Shown here in pieces: positions 14,556-23,398 of a DNA stretch of 64,000 nucleotides. A program made the position numbers and the translations under genes. The notes under the pieces are model-generated. The model ran no database searches. It saw only the letters and a list, made by a program, of their open reading frames with translations, and was not told where the DNA came from. Each line of letters opens with the position of its first letter. Position 1 is the stretch's first letter. Location of the stretch: positions 3,697,503 through 3,761,502 of the forward strand of contig NZ_CP076024.1 in the NCBI RefSeq assembly GCF_022788635.1, in the 5' to 3' direction. The stretch comes from Methylobacter sp. S3L5C (GTDB lineage: Bacteria > Pseudomonadota > Gammaproteobacteria > Methylococcales > Methylomonadaceae).

Positions 14556-15035
14556 TTAGGGTAGCAGGGTGCCAATACGGTCCAGTTCGGCTTTCAAACG
14601 TACGTTATCGAGCTTTAATTCAGCCAGTGGCAATGCCAGAAATTGTTCAATGCGATGGCGCAAAATGCGATAAGCGACTATAAATGCTGCTTTGATTTCT
14701 TCTTCAGTACCCTCAGCATGTGCAGGGTCTTCGACACCCCAATGACTGCGTAAAACGGAACCCAAATAGGCGGGACAAGTTTCGTTGGCGGCATTGCCGC
14801 AAACACTAATAACAATATCCGGAATCAAGGGTAGATCATTCCAGGATTTACTGTAATATCCCTCAGTAGAAATACCTTCCTGCTCAAGTAAAGCCACTGC
14901 CCGACTGTTTAATTTACCTAAAGGCTTGCTGCCTGCACTGAGTGCATGCCAACCTTTTGGCGCAAGATGATTGAAAGTGGCTTCGCCAATCAGCGATCGA
15001 CAAGAATTACCGGTGCAGAGAAATAAAACGTTCAT
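14556..15035 (-). CDS. arsC: ArsC arsenate reductase, thioredoxin-coupled type
   Basis: 159 residues with the low-molecular-weight phosphatase fold: CX5R loop CTGNSCR at residues 7-13, and a C-terminal redox pair in VCGNAANETC. It reduces As(V) to As(III) through a cysteine relay resolved by thioredoxin. The second of two arsC-like genes in the operon, it is nearest arsD. It also carries an extra Cys inside the phosphate loop (NSC), absent in its neighbour. Confidence 0.9.
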   Translation of the reverse strand: MNVLFLCTGNSCRSLIGEATFNHLAPKGWHALSAGSKPLGKLNSRAVALLEQEGISTEGYYSKSWNDLPLIPDIVISVCGNAANETCPAYLGSVLRSHWGVEDPAHAEGTEEEIKAAFIVAYRILRHRIEQFLALPLAELKLDNVRLKAELDRIGTLLP

Positions 15036-15099
15036 GAAAGATAGTAAATTTTAAATGTATAAAAAATATCGGATGCATTAAGGAAGAAGTAAAACTCTT

Positions 15100-15582
15100 T
15101 TAAGCTTCACCCATGTTGCCAATATCGCGAACTTGTCGTTCTAGTGCCATTCGTTCAAGACTAGCTATAGGTAAGCTAGTGAACAATATGATACGGCGCT
15201 CAAGGATGGCAAACGCTTTAGCGAAAGCAATACGCTTTTCTTTTTCTTCGGCTACTGCTGGATCAACCACTCCCCAATGAGCATTAATGGGTTGTCCAGG
15301 CCAAACGGGACAAATTTCATTGGCGGCATTATCACAAACCGTGATTACAAAATCGAGGGCTACGGCATCAGGTTTCGCAAACTCATCCCAGCTTTTGCTA
15401 CGTGCATCAGGCAATGAAATACCTTCCAGCTCCAAACGCTCAAGGGCAAATGGGTTAACGTAACCAGAAGGAAAACTACCGGCGCTAAAAGCCTGAAACC
15501 GGCCATTACCATATTTATTCAGCAAGCCTTCAGCCATAATACTTCGCGCTGAATTGCCGGTGCAGAGAAACAGAACATTCAT
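15100..15582 (-). CDS. arsC: second ArsC-type arsenate reductase / low-MW phosphatase
   Basis: 160 residues from ATG 15582. It has the same fold as the neighbouring ArsC: loop CTGNSARS at residues 7-14 and redox pair VCDNAANEIC, then the ARSKSWDEF region. It shares the N-terminal MNVLFLCTGNS with its neighbour but the rest is clearly diverged, so this is an old duplication or separate acquisition. It lies directly after arsR and is the first enzyme of the operon. Such pairs may differ in arsenate affinity; that is inference. Confidence 0.88.
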   Translation of the reverse strand: MNVLFLCTGNSARSIMAEGLLNKYGNGRFQAFSAGSFPSGYVNPFALERLELEGISLPDARSKSWDEFAKPDAVALDFVITVCDNAANEICPVWPGQPINAHWGVVDPAVAEEKEKRIAFAKAFAILERRIILFTSLPIASLERMALERQVRDIGNMGEA

Positions 15583-15612
15583 AATCAATAGCTTCCAAAG
15601 TTAAAGAAAAAA

Positions 15613-15951
15613 TTAGTTGGTATCGCAGCAGGAGGTTGCCTTATCGATATCAAAACAGTGCTCGGGGTTGCCCGTACAGCATTCGGCAGTCAGATAATCT
15701 ATCAACGACTGCATCACTGAAAGATTCGCCCGATAGCGTTGGTAGCGCCCCTCTTGAGTCACGTTAACCAAACTGGCATGAGTCATGGCTTTGAGATGAA
15801 ACGACAGGTTGGTTGAAGGCAAACCTAATATTGAGGCTATTTCACCTGCAACCAACCCCGTAGGTGCCTGTTTAACAAGCAGTCGAAAAATATCCAGTCG
15901 TATACCGGATGCCAGTGATTCAAAAAGTGTTGTTGCAAGTTGCTTATCCAT
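15613..15951 (-). CDS. arsR: ArsR-family As(III)-responsive repressor
   Basis: 112 residues from ATG 15951 (the open frame reaches a TTG at 15966). The winged-helix ArsR fold has the recognition region ASILGLPSTNLSFHLKAM. Metalloid-binding cysteines are C-terminal (AECCTGNPEHC, then SCC near the end) instead of the CVC of the R773 type, matching the C-terminal-cysteine ArsR class. It is the promoter-proximal gene and presumably represses the whole operon until As(III) binds. Confidence 0.9.
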   Translation of the reverse strand: MDKQLATTLFESLASGIRLDIFRLLVKQAPTGLVAGEIASILGLPSTNLSFHLKAMTHASLVNVTQEGRYQRYRANLSVMQSLIDYLTAECCTGNPEHCFDIDKATSCCDTN

Positions 15952-15963
15952 TGTTTGACTATA

Positions 15964-15975
15964 CAATAACTATTG
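15964..15975 (-). promoter_or_regulatory. possible ArsR operator
   Basis: Short interrupted palindrome CAATA-AC-TATTG, located 13-24 bp upstream of the arsR start, where a repressor site would block ribosome access or transcription. It is short and AT-rich, so may be chance. Confidence 0.3.
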
Positions 15976-16311: not shown

Positions 16312-18843
16312 TTAACTTCGGTTTAATTGCTGCTCAAATACGTCTAGCGGCACCGGCTTACCAAATAAATAACCCTGAACAATAGAACACCCGTGACGCT
16401 CTAAGAAAGCACGTTGTTCTTCTGTTTCTACGCCCTCGGCAACCACCTCCATACCTAAATTGGCAGCCATGGCAATAATGGTCTGTACGATCAGGGCATC
16501 GGTAACTTTAACATCAATATTATGTACAAAAGATTGGTCAATTTTTAGCTGGTTAAGCGGCAATTGCGTTAAATAAGCCAGTGATGAGTAACCGGTCCCG
16601 AAATCATCCACAGAAAATTGCACCCCGATTTGTTTAAGCTCATTCATCTTGATGATAGCCTCATCAATATTAACAAGCAGCAAGCTTTCGGTAATTTCAA
16701 GGTTAAGTCGGTCAAACCGGACGTTATATTTTTCCACTAATGCGCCAATCTGCTCAACAAAACCATCTTGATGAAACTGCTGGGCACTGACATTAACGGA
16801 AAGCTGTAAATGTTGCGTTGAAGATCTTTTTGCCCATGATTCCAACTGGGCGCACGCTGTCTCCAGTACCCATTGACCAATCGGCAATATCAACCCGGTC
16901 TCTTCGGCCAACGGGATAAAATTTAGCGGCGAAACCAGGCCTCGCTCTGGATGCTCCCAATGTAGCAGGACCTCGGCACCAATAATCCGGCCGGTATGAT
17001 AAACCTGCATCTGAAAATATAGCTTTAACTGATTTTGTGCCAACGCACAGCGTAAGTCTTTCTCAAGACCGGCGTTGGCAGTTACCACCTCCTGCATGGT
17101 CTTGTCAAAGAAACGCACCGTATTACGACCGGCTGTTTTGGCTTTATACATAGCCATGTCAGCGTGCCCAAGCAGTTCATCAACCGTCTCCAAATTTCGG
17201 TACATGGCGATGCCAATACTGGCAGAACAATGAAATTTGTAGTCATTACCATTGATATTATAGGGTTCGGCAAGTATCTCACGCACCTTTTCACCAACCT
17301 GTCTGGCATAAGTCGCGGCCATATCAGCTTCTGTATTGAGATTTTCCAGTAACACGACAAACTCATCGCCGCCCAAGCGCGCCAAGGTATCCACTTCTCG
17401 AATGGCTTTTCGAAGACGCTGCGCCACTTCAATCAGTAACTGGTCACCGGCATCGTGACCGTGGGTATCATTTAATGTTTTAAATTTATCAATATCCAAA
17501 AACAAAATTGCCCCGTACAACCGACTGCGGCCTGCCGCAATAAGCGCTTGACTCAATCGGTCATGCAACAAGCGACGATTGGGAAGTTTGGTCAGTGGAT
17601 CATAATAAGCCAAGCGATGAATCTCCTCCATCGCTTCCTGATTCTCGATAATACTGGAATAATTACCGACGTAATGCGTCACTCTACCCTCTGGCGTAAT
17701 AACCGCTGAGATGGCCAGCCATTTAGAGTAAACATTACCGTTCTTGTAACGGTTCCAAATCACGCCTTGCCAGTAACCATAATGTTTTAGAGTATCCCAC
17801 ATTGAGTCAAAAAACGCTTTGTCGTGCTGACCGGAATGGAACAGACGAGGATTCTGTCCCAATACCTCTTCTTCGCTATAACCGGTCAGCGTGGTAAACG
17901 CCTTGTTAATACGTAAAATTGTGCCGTCGACATCTGTTACCAGCATCCCCATCTGGGAATCAAAGGCAAGAGCTGCAATTTTCAGCTCCTCTTCAACCTG
18001 CTTGCGTGCAGCCAACTCAGTTAATAATTGCCCGTTTAATTGATTGAGCCGATCATGAATGATGGCATTGTCGATGCGATAGGGTAATTGTTCAAGATAG
18101 TCAGCGCGCTTGACAATATAATCTGCGGCGCCCAACTTAATGGCAGTAACAGCTTCACTATCATTGCCTTGGCCAGTAACCATAATAAACGGAGGTAACG
18201 TAAGGTTTCGGCTTCGTGCCTCTCGCACAAAGTTTAAACCACTCTGATCGGGCATGCGCAGGTCAATTAAAATCAGGTTATAATTATGTGGTTGGGCCAG
18301 ACATTCCAAGGCATCCGCACAATTTTGGACAACATCAATAACAAAATACGGCAACGTTCCTGCAAAATGTGACAGCGTCAGATCAATGTCCATCGACTGA
18401 TGCTCAATATAAAGAATCCGTCGAATATCACTGTCGGCCAGCAAACCCACAGGCTGTTTAAGTTTGTATTCCTTAAGTGCAAGATGCAATATCTCAGGCA
18501 GCATTTTTAAATAATGGTTGTTTTTAGGCAGGTAGTTGATTGCCCCCAACTTTAACGCTTTTACCACCACTTCCTCGTCATGAGCGCCCGTTACCAGTAC
18601 TACTGGCATTTTGATACCCGCGTGAATTAGCCACGTTAACAGCTGTATACCGTCCATATCGGGCAGTCGATAATCCAGTAACAACAAGTCAAAGGTAGCC
18701 TCTTGTAGGCGCTGCTGACACTGCTGCCCGGTGTTGACAATCTCGATTTTAAACTCCGGCGCATACTCCGCCAAACAGGCTTGGGTCAGATCCGCATCCT
18801 GGGGATTGTCTTCGACATAAAGAAGACGGAAGGTGGCTGTCAT
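16312..18843 (-). CDS. REC-REC-PAS-GGDEF-EAL cyclic-di-GMP enzyme
   Basis: 843 residues from ATG 18843, which overlaps the previous stop by 4 bp (ATGA). Order: receiver 1 (about 5-125, phospho-Asp in LLLLDYRLPD), receiver 2 (about 145-265, Asp in LILIDLRMPD but an E-H instead of the usual acidic pair), coiled linker, PAS (about 290-415), GGDEF (about 430-590) and EAL (about 600-840). The cyclase site GGDEF is exact, and an inhibitory RxxD (REVD) sits five residues before it. The phosphodiesterase domain has EVL in place of EAL but keeps NLEITES, DDFGTGYSSL and EGVET. It could both make and degrade c-di-GMP. It is the final gene and so the probable output of the operon. Confidence 0.93.
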   Translation of the reverse strand: MTATFRLLYVEDNPQDADLTQACLAEYAPEFKIEIVNTGQQCQQRLQEATFDLLLLDYRLPDMDGIQLLTWLIHAGIKMPVVLVTGAHDEEVVVKALKLGAINYLPKNNHYLKMLPEILHLALKEYKLKQPVGLLADSDIRRILYIEHQSMDIDLTLSHFAGTLPYFVIDVVQNCADALECLAQPHNYNLILIDLRMPDQSGLNFVREARSRNLTLPPFIMVTGQGNDSEAVTAIKLGAADYIVKRADYLEQLPYRIDNAIIHDRLNQLNGQLLTELAARKQVEEELKIAALAFDSQMGMLVTDVDGTILRINKAFTTLTGYSEEEVLGQNPRLFHSGQHDKAFFDSMWDTLKHYGYWQGVIWNRYKNGNVYSKWLAISAVITPEGRVTHYVGNYSSIIENQEAMEEIHRLAYYDPLTKLPNRRLLHDRLSQALIAAGRSRLYGAILFLDIDKFKTLNDTHGHDAGDQLLIEVAQRLRKAIREVDTLARLGGDEFVVLLENLNTEADMAATYARQVGEKVREILAEPYNINGNDYKFHCSASIGIAMYRNLETVDELLGHADMAMYKAKTAGRNTVRFFDKTMQEVVTANAGLEKDLRCALAQNQLKLYFQMQVYHTGRIIGAEVLLHWEHPERGLVSPLNFIPLAEETGLILPIGQWVLETACAQLESWAKRSSTQHLQLSVNVSAQQFHQDGFVEQIGALVEKYNVRFDRLNLEITESLLLVNIDEAIIKMNELKQIGVQFSVDDFGTGYSSLAYLTQLPLNQLKIDQSFVHNIDVKVTDALIVQTIIAMAANLGMEVVAEGVETEEQRAFLERHGCSIVQGYLFGKPVPLDVFEQQLNRS

Positions 18844-19322
18844 GATTGATTCCTGGCCGGTTCGGGAAAAGGTGGTTGATTTACCTGTAGCCAATAGGCC
18901 TTGATATACTGCATCATTTCGGCAAAGTCCGCGAAGTTTAGCGGCTTGATAATATAGGAATTGGCACCCAACTGATAAGCTCTGGAAATATCAGTGATTT
19001 CGTGTGAGACAGTCAGTACGACAACAGGTATTTGTTTCCAGATGACATCTTGTCTAATCTGGTGCAAGACCTCGAAACCGTCTATTTTTGGCAAGTGCAG
19101 ATCCAGCAACACCAGCGCAGGTAGTTGTAAATCATCCGGAGTCGTGTGGGCATTAATAAATGTCAACGCTTCTTCACCATCCCGACAAATCACTACCGGA
19201 TTATTAATCTGATTTCCCGTAAATGCCTGAAGGGCAAAATCAATGTCCATCGGGTTATCCTCCAATAGCAAAATCGGACGACTCTGAGTGCCAACTAAAC
19301 CACTTTTTGATTGAAAAGTCAT
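18840..19322 (-). CDS. single-domain response regulator (Rcp1-like)
   Basis: 160 residues, a stand-alone receiver domain with acidic pocket LLLEDN, phospho-Asp in ALVLLDLHLPKIDG and switch residues VLTVSHE. Insertions typical of the cyanobacterial phytochrome partner Rcp1 are present (INAHTTPDDLQLP). It has no output domain, so it must act through protein contacts, presumably relaying phosphate between the adjacent kinase and the two-receiver GGDEF-EAL protein. The start codon overlaps the kinase stop by one base (TAATG), and its own stop overlaps the next start (ATGA). Confidence 0.92.
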   Translation of the reverse strand: MTFQSKSGLVGTQSRPILLLEDNPMDIDFALQAFTGNQINNPVVICRDGEEALTFINAHTTPDDLQLPALVLLDLHLPKIDGFEVLHQIRQDVIWKQIPVVVLTVSHEITDISRAYQLGANSYIIKPLNFADFAEMMQYIKAYWLQVNQPPFPEPARNQS

Positions 19323-20701
19323 TACGCAGGACCTTGTTTCGGGTTTCGGGTTTCGGGTTTCGGTAACTCGACATAAAAGGTCGCCCCTAGTCCAGGTTTT
19401 GAATCTGCCCGAATGCTGCCTCCTATTTTATCAAGTATTTTCTTGACAATAGCTAGGCCGGCACCAGTACCTTCAAATTCCTCAGTGCGTACCAGCCGGT
19501 TAAATAAACCATAAATGCGCTCGCTATATTTCATATCAAAGCCGATACCATTGTCACTGACAATAATTCGATAACAGTCTTCCAGCTCCTCTGCCCGAAT
19601 ACTAATGCGCGGAGGATCAGCTTTACCGCTGAATTTTATGGCATTATCGATCAGGTTAGCAAGTACCTGTGTCAAACCACATTCCCACGTGAATAATGTT
19701 ATAAACGGAATGTTTATTGTCACTTCTTCATGCAGCTCGGTAATCATCAAGCTGCGGTCTTTTAATAACTCTTTAACCAGGCTACCCAGATCAACCTCAA
19801 CAAATATCGGGGCAGTTTCAGTATCCATACGCACAAAATTGAGCAGGTCTTCAATTAAATGATCCAGATTACGATTGGCAGAGATAATCTGACTTAGGCA
19901 GAACAAAGCCCGTTCACTCAGTCCTGCTTTGTGCTTGATTGTCAGCTCTTGTGCGTAACCTGTGATACCCCGTAAAGGTGCTTTAAGATCGTGCGCGACT
20001 GTGTAAGCAAAACCTTTCAGCTCTTCATTATGCTTCAAGAGCATTTGCTCTGTTTTTTGCAGTCGTTGGGTTTTATCATCCAACTCGTTATAAAGGGCGA
20101 CGATGCCGATATTGGTTTCAATCAGTTCTTGATTGATGCGTTTCAGCTCTTCATCACGCTGGCGGATCACTTCAAGAGCGGCCAGCAATTCGTGATTTTG
20201 GCTGCGAATTGCTTCCAATGGTGATTCACCGCGCTGCTTAGCCAACGCTTTTTCGATACGTTCCAACGTAGCGTCCATAACCGGTGAGACAGCAGCTGGA
20301 AGCCATTTTCCGAGCGTAACCGTAGTGCCCTGACCCAGCTTACTGTCAATATAAAAATGCTCAGGTAGCAGTCGTTTGCTACCAATGATACCTTGCCCCA
20401 TACCGGTACTTGACGTATAAAAGCCTTCCATAATGGTATCCAGACCTTCAATACCGGGGCCATGATCACGCACGACAATGGCTAACCATTGTGACGGGGC
20501 AATACCTTCAATAGAAAATTCAGCTTCGCCACCCTGCCCATATTGGAGAGCATTACGGGCGATTTCCGAGACAGCTGTTGCGATACGAGCCTGATCCTGC
20601 CGATCAAAACCCAGTATTCCGGCAATAAGCCTCGCTTGCTGTCGCGTTGCAACGACATCCTGATCAAATTTAATATCGGCACGGGCAATGCAAGTACTCA
20701 T
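19322..20701 (-). CDS. histidine kinase with N-terminal RsbT-like ATPase domain
   Basis: 459 residues from ATG 20701. The N-terminal domain (about 1-135) is an RsbT/RsbW-class ATPase fold with EIARNALQYGQGG and DHGPGIEG. A coiled coil follows (about 165-235), then HisKA with phospho-His in FAYTVAHDLKAPLRGI and a C-terminal HATPase with NLIDNAIKFS, DNGIGFD and GTGAGLAIVKK. Two ATP-binding domains in one kinase are unusual and suggest that the first docks on the stressosome or is controlled like RsbT, while the second performs autophosphorylation. No membrane segment. The last codons are made of a 7-bp tandem repeat that could alter the C-terminus. Confidence 0.92.
   Translation of the reverse strand: MSTCIARADIKFDQDVVATRQQARLIAGILGFDRQDQARIATAVSEIARNALQYGQGGEAEFSIEGIAPSQWLAIVVRDHGPGIEGLDTIMEGFYTSSTGMGQGIIGSKRLLPEHFYIDSKLGQGTTVTLGKWLPAAVSPVMDATLERIEKALAKQRGESPLEAIRSQNHELLAALEVIRQRDEELKRINQELIETNIGIVALYNELDDKTQRLQKTEQMLLKHNEELKGFAYTVAHDLKAPLRGITGYAQELTIKHKAGLSERALFCLSQIISANRNLDHLIEDLLNFVRMDTETAPIFVEVDLGSLVKELLKDRSLMITELHEEVTINIPFITLFTWECGLTQVLANLIDNAIKFSGKADPPRISIRAEELEDCYRIIVSDNGIGFDMKYSERIYGLFNRLVRTEEFEGTGAGLAIVKKILDKIGGSIRADSKPGLGATFYVELPKPETRNPKQGPA
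19336..19363. repeat. four exact 7-bp tandem repeats at kinase 3' end
   Basis: Unit GTTTCGG on the plus strand (CCGAAAC in the coding sense), four perfect copies, 28 bp, encoding the PKPETRNPK tail of the kinase. Since 7 is not a multiple of 3, a change in copy number shifts frame just before the TAATG junction. Read directly: with five copies the frame runs ...GTA ATG ACT TTT, in phase with the response regulator. Confidence 0.95.
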
Positions 20702-21732
20702 AATAACACCCTGCATGAGTCAGCCTTGGCGACCACGATGGTACTGTCATCACGCAAGCGCTGATGATCACGAAACAATACCCCGGCAATAAGGCTTGGG
20801 TGTTTCAACGCCAAACCCGGATAATCGGCCAGTGACCAATGGGTCGCAATACCGTCAGAATGCAAAATAAGTAAGGCATTGTTAGTCCAGGGATAGGTAA
20901 AAACATGGATAGTCCTTGCTTCAACCCCTGCAGTGCCATTATTGGAGACCATCTGCCGGGAAGTGTCGCCGGTAATAATAAGCCCGGAGAGGTTACCGAC
21001 GCCTGCATAGCGAACAAGCTGCTCTTTGAGAGCTACCTCGACTACCGACACAGCGGCACCCCGGGTACTTTGCAAATCTGTGTGAATCAGCGACAACATT
21101 ACCTCCGGGCTACGCGGGGCGTATTTTTCAAAAATTGCCACCGCCAGATTAGCGGCAGTTGCCGCATCCGGCCCATGCCCCAAACCATCGGCGAGCATGA
21201 ATAAAATTCTGTCACAACCGGCTTTCATCGCCCATGCATCACCACAGGCTTGTTCCCCTAAAACGGGCAGACACACCGCACCAATAGCCAACAAGAGCAC
21301 CGGCGGCAAGGAAGTTTTATTAGGTAAATCTTTCCAAAGCCGACTCAACACAGCGGTACCTTGGCCGGGAACCGAGAAAATATCGAACACCGAGGATAAC
21401 CGGCGAATGGCACCCAAACCGCCACCCAAACTGCCAGTCGTAGAATGACCATCACGCAAACTTTCACTAATATTGGTAATACCGGGGCCTTTATCAAGCG
21501 AGAGAATATCAATACCGGTAGTACCACCCTCTGTCAACGGACAAAAGATAAGGTCACCGCCAGCACCAGCAGTATGCTTAACCAGATTAGTCGCCAGCTC
21601 AGTCACCAACAATGCAGCTTCACCAGTGCGTACTTCATTAAAATCCAGTTCATGGCAGAGCGAAGTTACCAAGCGCCTCGCCATACCTGTGTCACTGACA
21701 TCTTGGACATGCAACTGTTGAGAGAATATCAT
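20698..21732 (-). CDS. anti-sigma-type ATPase fused to PP2C phosphatase (RsbX-like)
   Basis: 344 residues from ATG 21732 (a GTG at 21735 is adjacent). The N-terminal domain (about 1-135) is an RsbW/RsbT-class HATPase (LLVTELATNLVKHTAGAG and LDKGPGITN). The C-terminal domain (about 145-340) is a SpoIIE/RsbX-type PP2C phosphatase with metal Asp residues in ACGDAW, LADGLGHG, HSDGIATHW and RDDSTIVV. In known stressosomes RsbX dephosphorylates RsbR and RsbS and resets the complex; the fusion would place a kinase-like fold on the same chain. It is coupled to the downstream kinase gene by an ATGA overlap. Confidence 0.9.
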   Translation of the reverse strand: MIFSQQLHVQDVSDTGMARRLVTSLCHELDFNEVRTGEAALLVTELATNLVKHTAGAGGDLIFCPLTEGGTTGIDILSLDKGPGITNISESLRDGHSTTGSLGGGLGAIRRLSSVFDIFSVPGQGTAVLSRLWKDLPNKTSLPPVLLLAIGAVCLPVLGEQACGDAWAMKAGCDRILFMLADGLGHGPDAATAANLAVAIFEKYAPRSPEVMLSLIHTDLQSTRGAAVSVVEVALKEQLVRYAGVGNLSGLIITGDTSRQMVSNNGTAGVEARTIHVFTYPWTNNALLILHSDGIATHWSLADYPGLALKHPSLIAGVLFRDHQRLRDDSTIVVAKADSCRVLL

Positions 21733-21736
21733 CACT

Positions 21737-22141
21737 TTATTTCCACATGGTAATGGTCACGCGCGTACCATAGCCTGGCTCCGACCAAATCTCGAAATCA
21801 TTCACCAGACGCTTGGCACCACCCAAACCCAAGCCCAAGCCTTTACCTGTGGTAAACCCGTCCGTCAACGCTTGATTGATATCGGCTATACCCGGCCCCT
21901 GATCCTCAAATATTACCCGAAAACCTAGCCGGTAAAAATCGTCCAGACATTCCAACCGCGCAAAACCACCACCGCCGTATACCACTATGTTACGACCCAG
22001 TTCACTGGCAGCCGTCACCATTTTAGTCTGCGCTACCAAACCAAAAGCCTGTTCAATCATCCACGCGCGCACGGCTTGACGCACTTTTACCAAGTCATCA
22101 TCAGTATGTAATGGCAGTACTTCACTTTTGATGAGTCTCAT
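21737..22141 (-). CDS. rsbT: RsbT stressosome switch kinase
   Basis: 134 residues, full RsbT length. ATP-binding motifs are ASELGRNIVVYGGGG (N box), EDQGPGI (G1) and TTGKGLGLGLGGAKRL (G2). RsbT phosphorylates RsbS and RsbR in the stressosome and then leaves to bind a downstream partner. No rsbU or sigma-B gene is present here, so its target must differ; the ATPase-bearing proteins encoded next are candidates. The start overlaps the end of rsbS by 20 bp. Confidence 0.92.
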   Translation of the reverse strand: MRLIKSEVLPLHTDDDLVKVRQAVRAWMIEQAFGLVAQTKMVTAASELGRNIVVYGGGGFARLECLDDFYRLGFRVIFEDQGPGIADINQALTDGFTTGKGLGLGLGGAKRLVNDFEIWSEPGYGTRVTITMWK

Positions 22142-22520
22142 GACGGCTACCTTTGTCTCCGGTTAAGTTAACCAGGACTCGGAGCAAGTCTATGCCTTTA
22201 TCTACGTTTAAGGCAGTACGAACATTACTCAACGATAATCCCAGCTCGACAATGGTAATAGCCACCGCTGGTCGCATACCAACGACAACGGTTTCAGCCC
22301 CCAACACGTTCATCATTGATGCAATATTGCCAATCATCCGACCAATAAACGAATCAACAATTTCAAGCGAAGAGATATCAATAAGAACACCTTGAGCACG
22401 AGTTTTGATCAAGTGGATGGTGAGATCATCCTGTAATCTCATCGCCAGTCGATCATGCATATCCACCTGAATACTTACCAGCAGAAATTCACCGACTTTA
22501 ATGATAGGTATATGATCCAT
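22122..22520 (-). CDS. rsbS: RsbS STAS-domain stressosome scaffold protein
   Basis: 132 residues from ATG 22520, preceded by GGAAG. It is a single STAS domain with the RsbS phosphorylation loop DISSLEIVDSFIGRMI, retaining the Ser that RsbT phosphorylates in Bacillus. Together with RsbR it forms the icosahedral core that holds RsbT. The gene is between rsbR (20-bp gap) and rsbT (20-bp overlap), giving the canonical R-S-T order. The longer frame to 22565 overlaps rsbR and is unlikely to be used. Confidence 0.93.
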   Translation of the reverse strand: MDHIPIIKVGEFLLVSIQVDMHDRLAMRLQDDLTIHLIKTRAQGVLIDISSLEIVDSFIGRMIGNIASMMNVLGAETVVVGMRPAVAITIVELGLSLSNVRTALNVDKGIDLLRVLVNLTGDKGSRHETHQK

Positions 22521-22540: not shown

Positions 22541-23398
22541 CTACGCTGGCTTGTTGATAGTACAACCCATTTGACGAAGCGCATAAGCCAAAGCATCGGC
22601 CAGTGTAGCCTTGGTGACCACATCACTGAACTCCAGGCCAAGATGCACCATCGACTGCGCAATCTGCGGACGAATACCGCTAATAACGCAATTGGCACCC
22701 ATTAACTTCGCAGCAGAAACTGTCTTAAGCAAATGCTGGGCAACCATCGTATCGACCGTGGGGACGCCAGTAATATCAACAATGGCAAAACTGCTACCGG
22801 TATCGACAATACTTTGTAACAAATTTTCCATCACAACCTGAGTACGGACACTATCAAGTGTACCAATAAGCGGCACCGCAAGAATACCCTCCCAAAGCTT
22901 TACCACTGGCGTGGACAACTCAAGCATTTCTGCCTGCTGATGCCTGATAATCTCTTCACGACTCTTTTGATAGACCTCAGTGGTGTAAAGCCCCAACTTA
23001 TCAATAAGTACCGTCGTATTCCATAGCTCATTAGCCAACAATTCGGCATCAGCACCCACCTCCTGCCGAAGACGGGCAAACAGCGGTTGCTTAAGCGAAA
23101 AAACAAAGGTGGCGGTTTCTGAAGGCGAAAAGCCCTGGATAGCGCGACTACGAGAGACGCTAACCAGAAAGTCCAGAACCGGCCTCCACTCAGGCTTGGT
23201 AATGTCAGTAAGGTTACCTATAGAACAGGCGGAGGTAAAAAGCGTGAGAAATTCGATTGATTGCCGACGTAAATCAAGTTCGGAAATTAAATCCTGACGT
23301 GCAGAGAGAGCGGCAAACTGCTCATGCAACCACTCGTCAATGATTTCTTCTTGGTGGTCGAAAATTCTTGTAATGGTGCCTTGTTTATTGGTGGTCAT
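22541..23398 (-). CDS. rsbR: RsbR-type stressosome sensor (RsbRD N-domain + STAS)
   Basis: 285 residues with a good RBS (GGAG 8 bases before ATG). The N-terminal domain (about 1-150) is an all-helical RsbRD-type sensor with IIDEWLHEQ and SRSRAIQGFSPSETATFVFSL. It contains no obvious haem His or flavin motif. The C-terminal STAS domain (about 165-280) keeps the phospho-Thr in VPTVDTMVAQH, while the second Bacillus site (Thr205) is a Ser here (IAQSMVHLGL). It is the first gene of the operon and the presumed stress sensor. The signal is unknown. Confidence 0.92.
   Translation of the reverse strand: MTTNKQGTITRIFDHQEEIIDEWLHEQFAALSARQDLISELDLRRQSIEFLTLFTSACSIGNLTDITKPEWRPVLDFLVSVSRSRAIQGFSPSETATFVFSLKQPLFARLRQEVGADAELLANELWNTTVLIDKLGLYTTEVYQKSREEIIRHQQAEMLELSTPVVKLWEGILAVPLIGTLDSVRTQVVMENLLQSIVDTGSSFAIVDITGVPTVDTMVAQHLLKTVSAAKLMGANCVISGIRPQIAQSMVHLGLEFSDVVTKATLADALAYALRQMGCTINKPA

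Follow-up and report, generated by a model that had tools for sequence, protein, structure and literature searches.

A heptamer repeat, probably slippage-prone and tolerated, in the tail of a histidine kinase linked to a stressosome module in a methanotroph

Repeat tracts near the 3' end of coding regions are known from other bacterial systems that resemble the locus described here. In gonococcal C-terminal phase variation, one of the reading frames can fuse a gene to the next gene (PMC5320596). The candidate pair NGK_1211/NGK_1212 of Neisseria gonorrhoeae carries a non-triplet tract near the 3' end that leads to different C-termini in two frames and to a downstream fusion in the third (PMC5320596). 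The junction of a histidine kinase gene and a receiver gene analysed in this study shows the same layout, but with a 7-bp unit and in a cytoplasmic signalling pair, and its variation was seen between two species only, whereas the gonococcal candidate tract varies between strains of one species. Likewise, slippage at a gene's 3' end can join it to its neighbour, as in hsdS1/hsdS2 of NgoAV (PMC9577141); there, fusion by deletion within the poly-G tract was shown experimentally and changes the DNA specificity, whereas two alleles, neither of them fused, are available here. Slippage-driven fusion has also been reported for mycobacterial ORFs (PMC1501019).

In Helicobacter pylori, the histidine kinase gene arsS carries a simple repeat, a poly-C tract, in its 3' part, and a change in tract length, from C15 to C14 in an isolate after passage, alters the C-terminus; unlike the present array, this mononucleotide tract is located at nucleotide 1261 of 1347 and causes an early stop without fusion (PMC12838425). 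Tandem units of seven bases, as found here, occur in the hmw1A and hmw2A promoters (PMC2651432) and in the TAACTGA repeats cited in PMC4679880. Such heptanucleotide repeats are located mainly upstream of genes, whereas the present array is coding and lies at a gene-gene junction. Among 5-11-nt long repeats, heptamers are reported to be the commonest class in most of the genomes covered by the surveys that are cited in PMC4679880.

The array was detected in a 64-kb stretch of DNA from Methylobacter sp. S3L5C, hereafter termed the window. The organism is a methanotroph, as its genome contains pmoA, for which the nearest PDB entries are subunits of the particulate methane monooxygenase. The kinase gene belongs to a minus-strand cluster of seven genes (Table 1), in the order RsbR-, RsbS-, RsbT- and RsbX-like genes, histidine kinase, receiver and REC-REC-PAS-GGDEF-EAL protein. 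Since proteins with RsbR, RsbS, RsbT and RsbX domains are encoded adjacently and in the order of the RsbRSTX module, the cluster is a stressosome module by gene content, the assembly of the complex and RsbT-dependent phosphorylation being putative. The Vibrio vulnificus-type stressosome locus likewise comprises RsbR-RsbS-RsbT-RsbX followed by two-component genes, there designated D1 and D2, whereas the present cluster is distinguished by an RsbRD_N domain on RsbR, a stand-alone receiver and the REC-REC-PAS-GGDEF-EAL output; a repeat is present here but is not described in the accessible passages on the Vibrio locus (PMC9237108). Downstream of the cluster, at positions 14556-15966 of the window, three ORFs were recognized by eye from the translations, two of them similar to low-molecular-weight phosphatases of the ArsC type and one to a regulator of the ArsR type. 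With respect to the kinase gene, a start at ATG 20701 was favoured by alignment with the sister species. The HATPase_c match stops at residue 453 of 463, ahead of most of the array-coded tail, which is consequently located C-terminal to the catalytic domain.

Table 1. Features of the heptamer array and the surrounding gene cluster (window positions)
Feature	Positions	Strand	Basis
CCGAAAC tandem array, four perfect units, 28 bp	19336..19363	-	direct reading and Tandem Repeats Finder
TAATG, kinase stop TAA (19324-19322) sharing one base with receiver ATG (19322-19320)	19320..19324	-	
AAGG adjoining the array on its downstream side, likely receiver ribosome-binding site	19332..19335	-	direct reading; function presumed
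ATG, out of frame, close to the upstream end of the array	19372..19374	-	use as start presumed
Histidine kinase: HATPase_c_2, HisKA (VAHDLKAP), HATPase_c	19322..20716	-	ORF and domain matches
Stand-alone receiver (REC), 160 aa	18840..19322	-	ORF and domain match
REC-REC-PAS-GGDEF-EAL protein, probable cyclic-di-GMP output	16312..18843	-	ORF and domain matches
RsbX-like: HATPase_c_2 and SpoIIE phosphatase domain	20698..21735	-	ORF and domain matches
RsbT-like HATPase_c_2 kinase	21737..22141	-	ORF and domain match
RsbS-like STAS protein	22122..22520	-	ORF and domain match
RsbR-like: RsbRD_N and STAS	22541..23398	-	ORF and domain matches

The minus strand of the junction reads GAGTTA-(CCGAAAC)x4-AAGGTCCTGCGTAATGACTTTT. 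The four perfect CCGAAAC units that a first-pass annotation had described at the 3' end of the kinase gene were verified by direct reading from position 19363 to 19336, and the Tandem Repeats Finder program returned 19336-19363 with a period of 7, 4.0 copies and a match of 100%. The array lies inside the last 15 kinase codons, 14-41 nt ahead of the receiver ATG, where it codes for part of the C-terminal tail (PKPETRNPK); as in a C-terminal phase-variable gene, the repeat tract is placed by the coding 3' end. It represents the sole perfect array of at least three copies and at least 20 bp in the window. When the window was simulated 60 times with a first-order Markov model, heptamer arrays always stayed below three copies, and the longest run of 7-periodic matches comprised 10 bases, as against 21 at the array. 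The array length of 28 bp is far beyond chance.

The first-pass annotation had also noted that the kinase stop codon TAA overlaps the receiver ATG, which agrees with the kinase ORF ending at position 19322, the A of this ATG. Owing to the stop/start overlap, the translation of kinase and receiver is probably coupled. The junction was translated in silico with 0-12 heptamer copies. With n=1, 4, 7 or 10 (1 mod 3), the kinase is predicted to stop at TAATG and the proteins are separate, whereas n=2, 5, 8 or 11 (2 mod 3) would yield a single open kinase-receiver ORF of 620-641 aa without a stop in between, and with n=0, 3, 6, 9 or 12 (0 mod 3) the kinase would enter the third frame and terminate 65 nt past the receiver ATG. 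This translation reproduced the earlier statements that five copies bring the kinase in phase with the receiver and that three copies shift it into a third frame. Accordingly, the 7-bp unit shifts the frame among three predicted phases with alternative C-termini or fusion, as in a C-terminal phase-variable gene, and both the kinase core and the receiver are predicted to be complete in all of them.

The AAGG motif, with a predicted anti-SD pairing of -3.3 kcal/mol, is kept in every repeat phase. Moreover, the ATG at 19374-19372 is preceded by AGGGG, and by AGGAG at the equivalent place in the sister species; in silico, it is in the receiver frame at copy numbers of 0 mod 3 and open into the receiver from at least three copies. 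Control of the receiver start by copy number via RNA structure was rejected, since the local folding energy of the start region barely changes (-8.9 at n=1 and -8.3 for n=2 to 12).

Of 311 genomes of the order that were searched, only two encode this kinase at high identity, that of the window and that of the sister species (85% identical). The sister junction contains 12 units, namely eleven CCGAAAT and then one CCGAAAC, followed by AAGGTCCTGCGTAATG as in the window. The tract length thus varies between two species, with one genome each, from 4 copies in the window to 12 in the sister; in line with the first-pass annotation, the copy number is not fixed and the variants change the frame. The C/T difference between window and sister is common to 11 of the 12 units, with the terminal unit unchanged, and one base change in eleven of twelve units is a mark of slippage and homogenisation. 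As read from the two alleles, the array has slipped and has been homogenised between the species; from these two alleles in two species we infer that it may be mutable within a species as well.

Since twelve copies correspond to 0 mod 3, the sister kinase is in the third frame; it ends ...NKVLRNDFSTKEWFC, with an overlap of 32 nt into the receiver gene, and the ATG that follows AGGAG then lies in the receiver frame. As the sister genome is a draft (~160 contigs), the exact count of 12, and hence the phase, could be an assembly error, the array itself not being in doubt. Comparison of window and sister yielded dN/dS values of 0.08-0.20 for all seven genes, each calculated pairwise and hence combining both lineages in one value, which indicates purifying selection although the phases differ, so that both arrangements are apparently functional alleles. 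Searches for the exact junction DNA and for relatives of the receiver in viral contigs provided no further allele.

The repeat unit was also traced beyond the junction. Two tandem CCGAAAY units occur nowhere else in the 4.8-Mb window genome, which rules out a genome-wide family of the CCGAAAC repeat. Four units were found in only one of 369 sampled gammaproteobacterial genomes, the window's own, and the repeat is consequently not widespread in Gammaproteobacteria. Inheritance from the wider kinase family was ruled out as well, since the homologues, except for the sister, are devoid of an array at the junction. Searches of the literature for the repeat as DNA or peptide string returned no paper on such a bacterial repeat, as judged by titles. 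Background repeats were counted on the window (64 kb) and on sixteen 20-kb segments (320 kb), in total 384 kb of the window genome, and revealed six perfect arrays of at least three copies and at least 20 bp, three of which are heptameric. The other two perfect heptamer arrays, from the 320-kb sample, have the units ATACTTG and GTGGAAG, the latter in an ORF that is transposase-like by eye (7.4 copies, L122:19648-19699). The same genome contains a CCTCAT array of 9.7 copies that codes for an acidic (DE)n C-terminal tail (L121:10931-10988).

Further repeats were noted in other genomes. In a genome of the same genus (G002), a four-copy array of the unit found at the junction, read there as GTTTCGG, is located between proA-like and hrcA-like genes, both named by eye (L116:3619-3647). 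Tandem CCGAAAY is present at many sites in some unrelated genomes (L134-L144; G470, G477, G490, G498 and G570), with ~20 or more sites in G477 and ~12 in G470 when counted by distinct positions in the match list; a reversed control pattern was rarer in those genomes, but present. Within 100 kb of G570 (L167-L171), a genome that belongs to the same phylum as an Acidobacteria genome, ~36 perfect heptamer arrays with 2.5 or more copies were found; several distinct units are represented, some arrays form facing pairs (AGGACTG ... CTCAGTC), and period 7 is strongly preferred over 6, 8 and 9.

The genetic organization of kinase and receiver was compared in 100 loci, comprising the window, the sister and 98 homologues from several phyla. 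A stand-alone receiver is located directly downstream of the kinase in 70 of the 100 loci, and in 50 of these 70 its start lies 2 nt or less downstream of the first base of the kinase stop; these counts are approximate, since a simple rule was used to select start codons and no receiver satisfied the survey criteria in 29 loci. The 50 close junctions are mostly one-base overlaps such as ATGA, with few starts further upstream. Where the receiver is separate, the homologous kinases extend no more than ~30 residues past the matched core. None of the 70 homologous pairs has the kinase fused to the downstream receiver, so that a fused form conserved in relatives was not found, and neither of the two readable alleles (window with 4 copies, sister with 12) is of the 2-mod-3 type. 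The alternation between separate and fused proteins proposed by the first-pass annotation is thus not borne out, the sister allele being in the third frame, and the five-copy or fused kinase-REC alleles that it suggested to look for in relatives did not turn up in the two alleles or the 70 loci; a fused allele was not encountered in nature. One locus of the same family (L005/L117) encodes a hybrid kinase of ~40% identity with two other receivers. In L117 (6857-9019), this hybrid kinase with two C-terminal receivers replaces the kinase and the stand-alone receiver in a related stressosome operon.

These data suggest that the array is probably a slippage-generated heptamer repeat that is tolerated in a dispensable C-terminal tail of the stressosome-linked histidine kinase. 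As every phase would keep the kinase core and the receiver intact, indels would be only weakly selected against, and the copy number would drift by replication slippage as a consequence. The usual result of this drift would be a changed kinase tail or an altered coupling of receiver translation, and fusion would arise only as an occasional by-product; at 0 mod 3, the kinase tail would be lengthened into the receiver gene and an upstream start would be opened in the receiver frame. The array has been kept in both holders of the kinase, which selection could also explain. An alternative role would be that of a dosage device, in which the copy number sets the handover of translation from kinase to receiver, either by re-initiation at TAATG or by read-through plus the upstream in-frame start, and thereby tunes the receiver dose or adds an N-terminal extension. 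The overlapping or nearly overlapping junctions in 50 of 70 homologues, the sister kinase that ends inside the receiver gene and the ATG after AGGAG in the receiver frame are compatible with this role, but the receiver keeps its own AAGG and the local structure is nearly constant across copy numbers, and we regard it as unlikely.

By its anatomy, the array may be a candidate case of C-terminal phase variation, and the first-pass annotation had viewed it as a possible contingency-locus switch in which slippage toggles between separate kinase and receiver proteins and a hybrid, altering phosphotransfer. Repeat-driven fusion has precedents in the gonococcal hsdS1/hsdS2 genes of NgoAV (PMC9577141) and in NGK_1211/NGK_1212 (PMC5320596). 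Such a switch is also in agreement with the frames at n=2, 5, 8 and 11, which are open without an intervening stop, with the different copy numbers of the sister species and with the hybrid kinase carrying C-terminal receivers in the related operon L117 of the same family; however, this hybrid is only ~40% identical and has other receivers, and fusion was seen neither as a 2-mod-3 phase in the two alleles nor in the 70 homologous pairs. Moreover, four copies are short for a hypermutable tract. Since neither the two alleles nor the 70 loci provided a fused form, the switch is not favoured over tolerated drift, and we rate it as quite improbable. The more far-reaching view that natural populations alternate among all three phases, each cell carrying either separate proteins, a hybrid, or a kinase with a lengthened tail beside a receiver with an N-terminal extension, which would amount to a heritable three-state rewiring of stressosome-to-cyclic-di-GMP signalling in a methanotroph, is decidedly improbable. 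An assembly or sequencing artefact could in principle account for the copy numbers, as draft assemblies can collapse or expand short tandem repeats and the sister genome is such a draft, but the window genome is a single contig, the 28-bp array is shorter than one sequencing read and the sister array differs in unit sequence besides copy number, which makes this explanation highly improbable.

Even if the array is only tolerated, the junction illustrates a possible route from adjacent kinase and receiver genes to hybrid kinases, as a single repeat unit is sufficient and neither domain is destroyed in any phase. If switching holds true, the locus would be a rare example in which slippage rewires a two-component pathway between a split and a hybrid form, and this in an environmental bacterium rather than in a pathogen.
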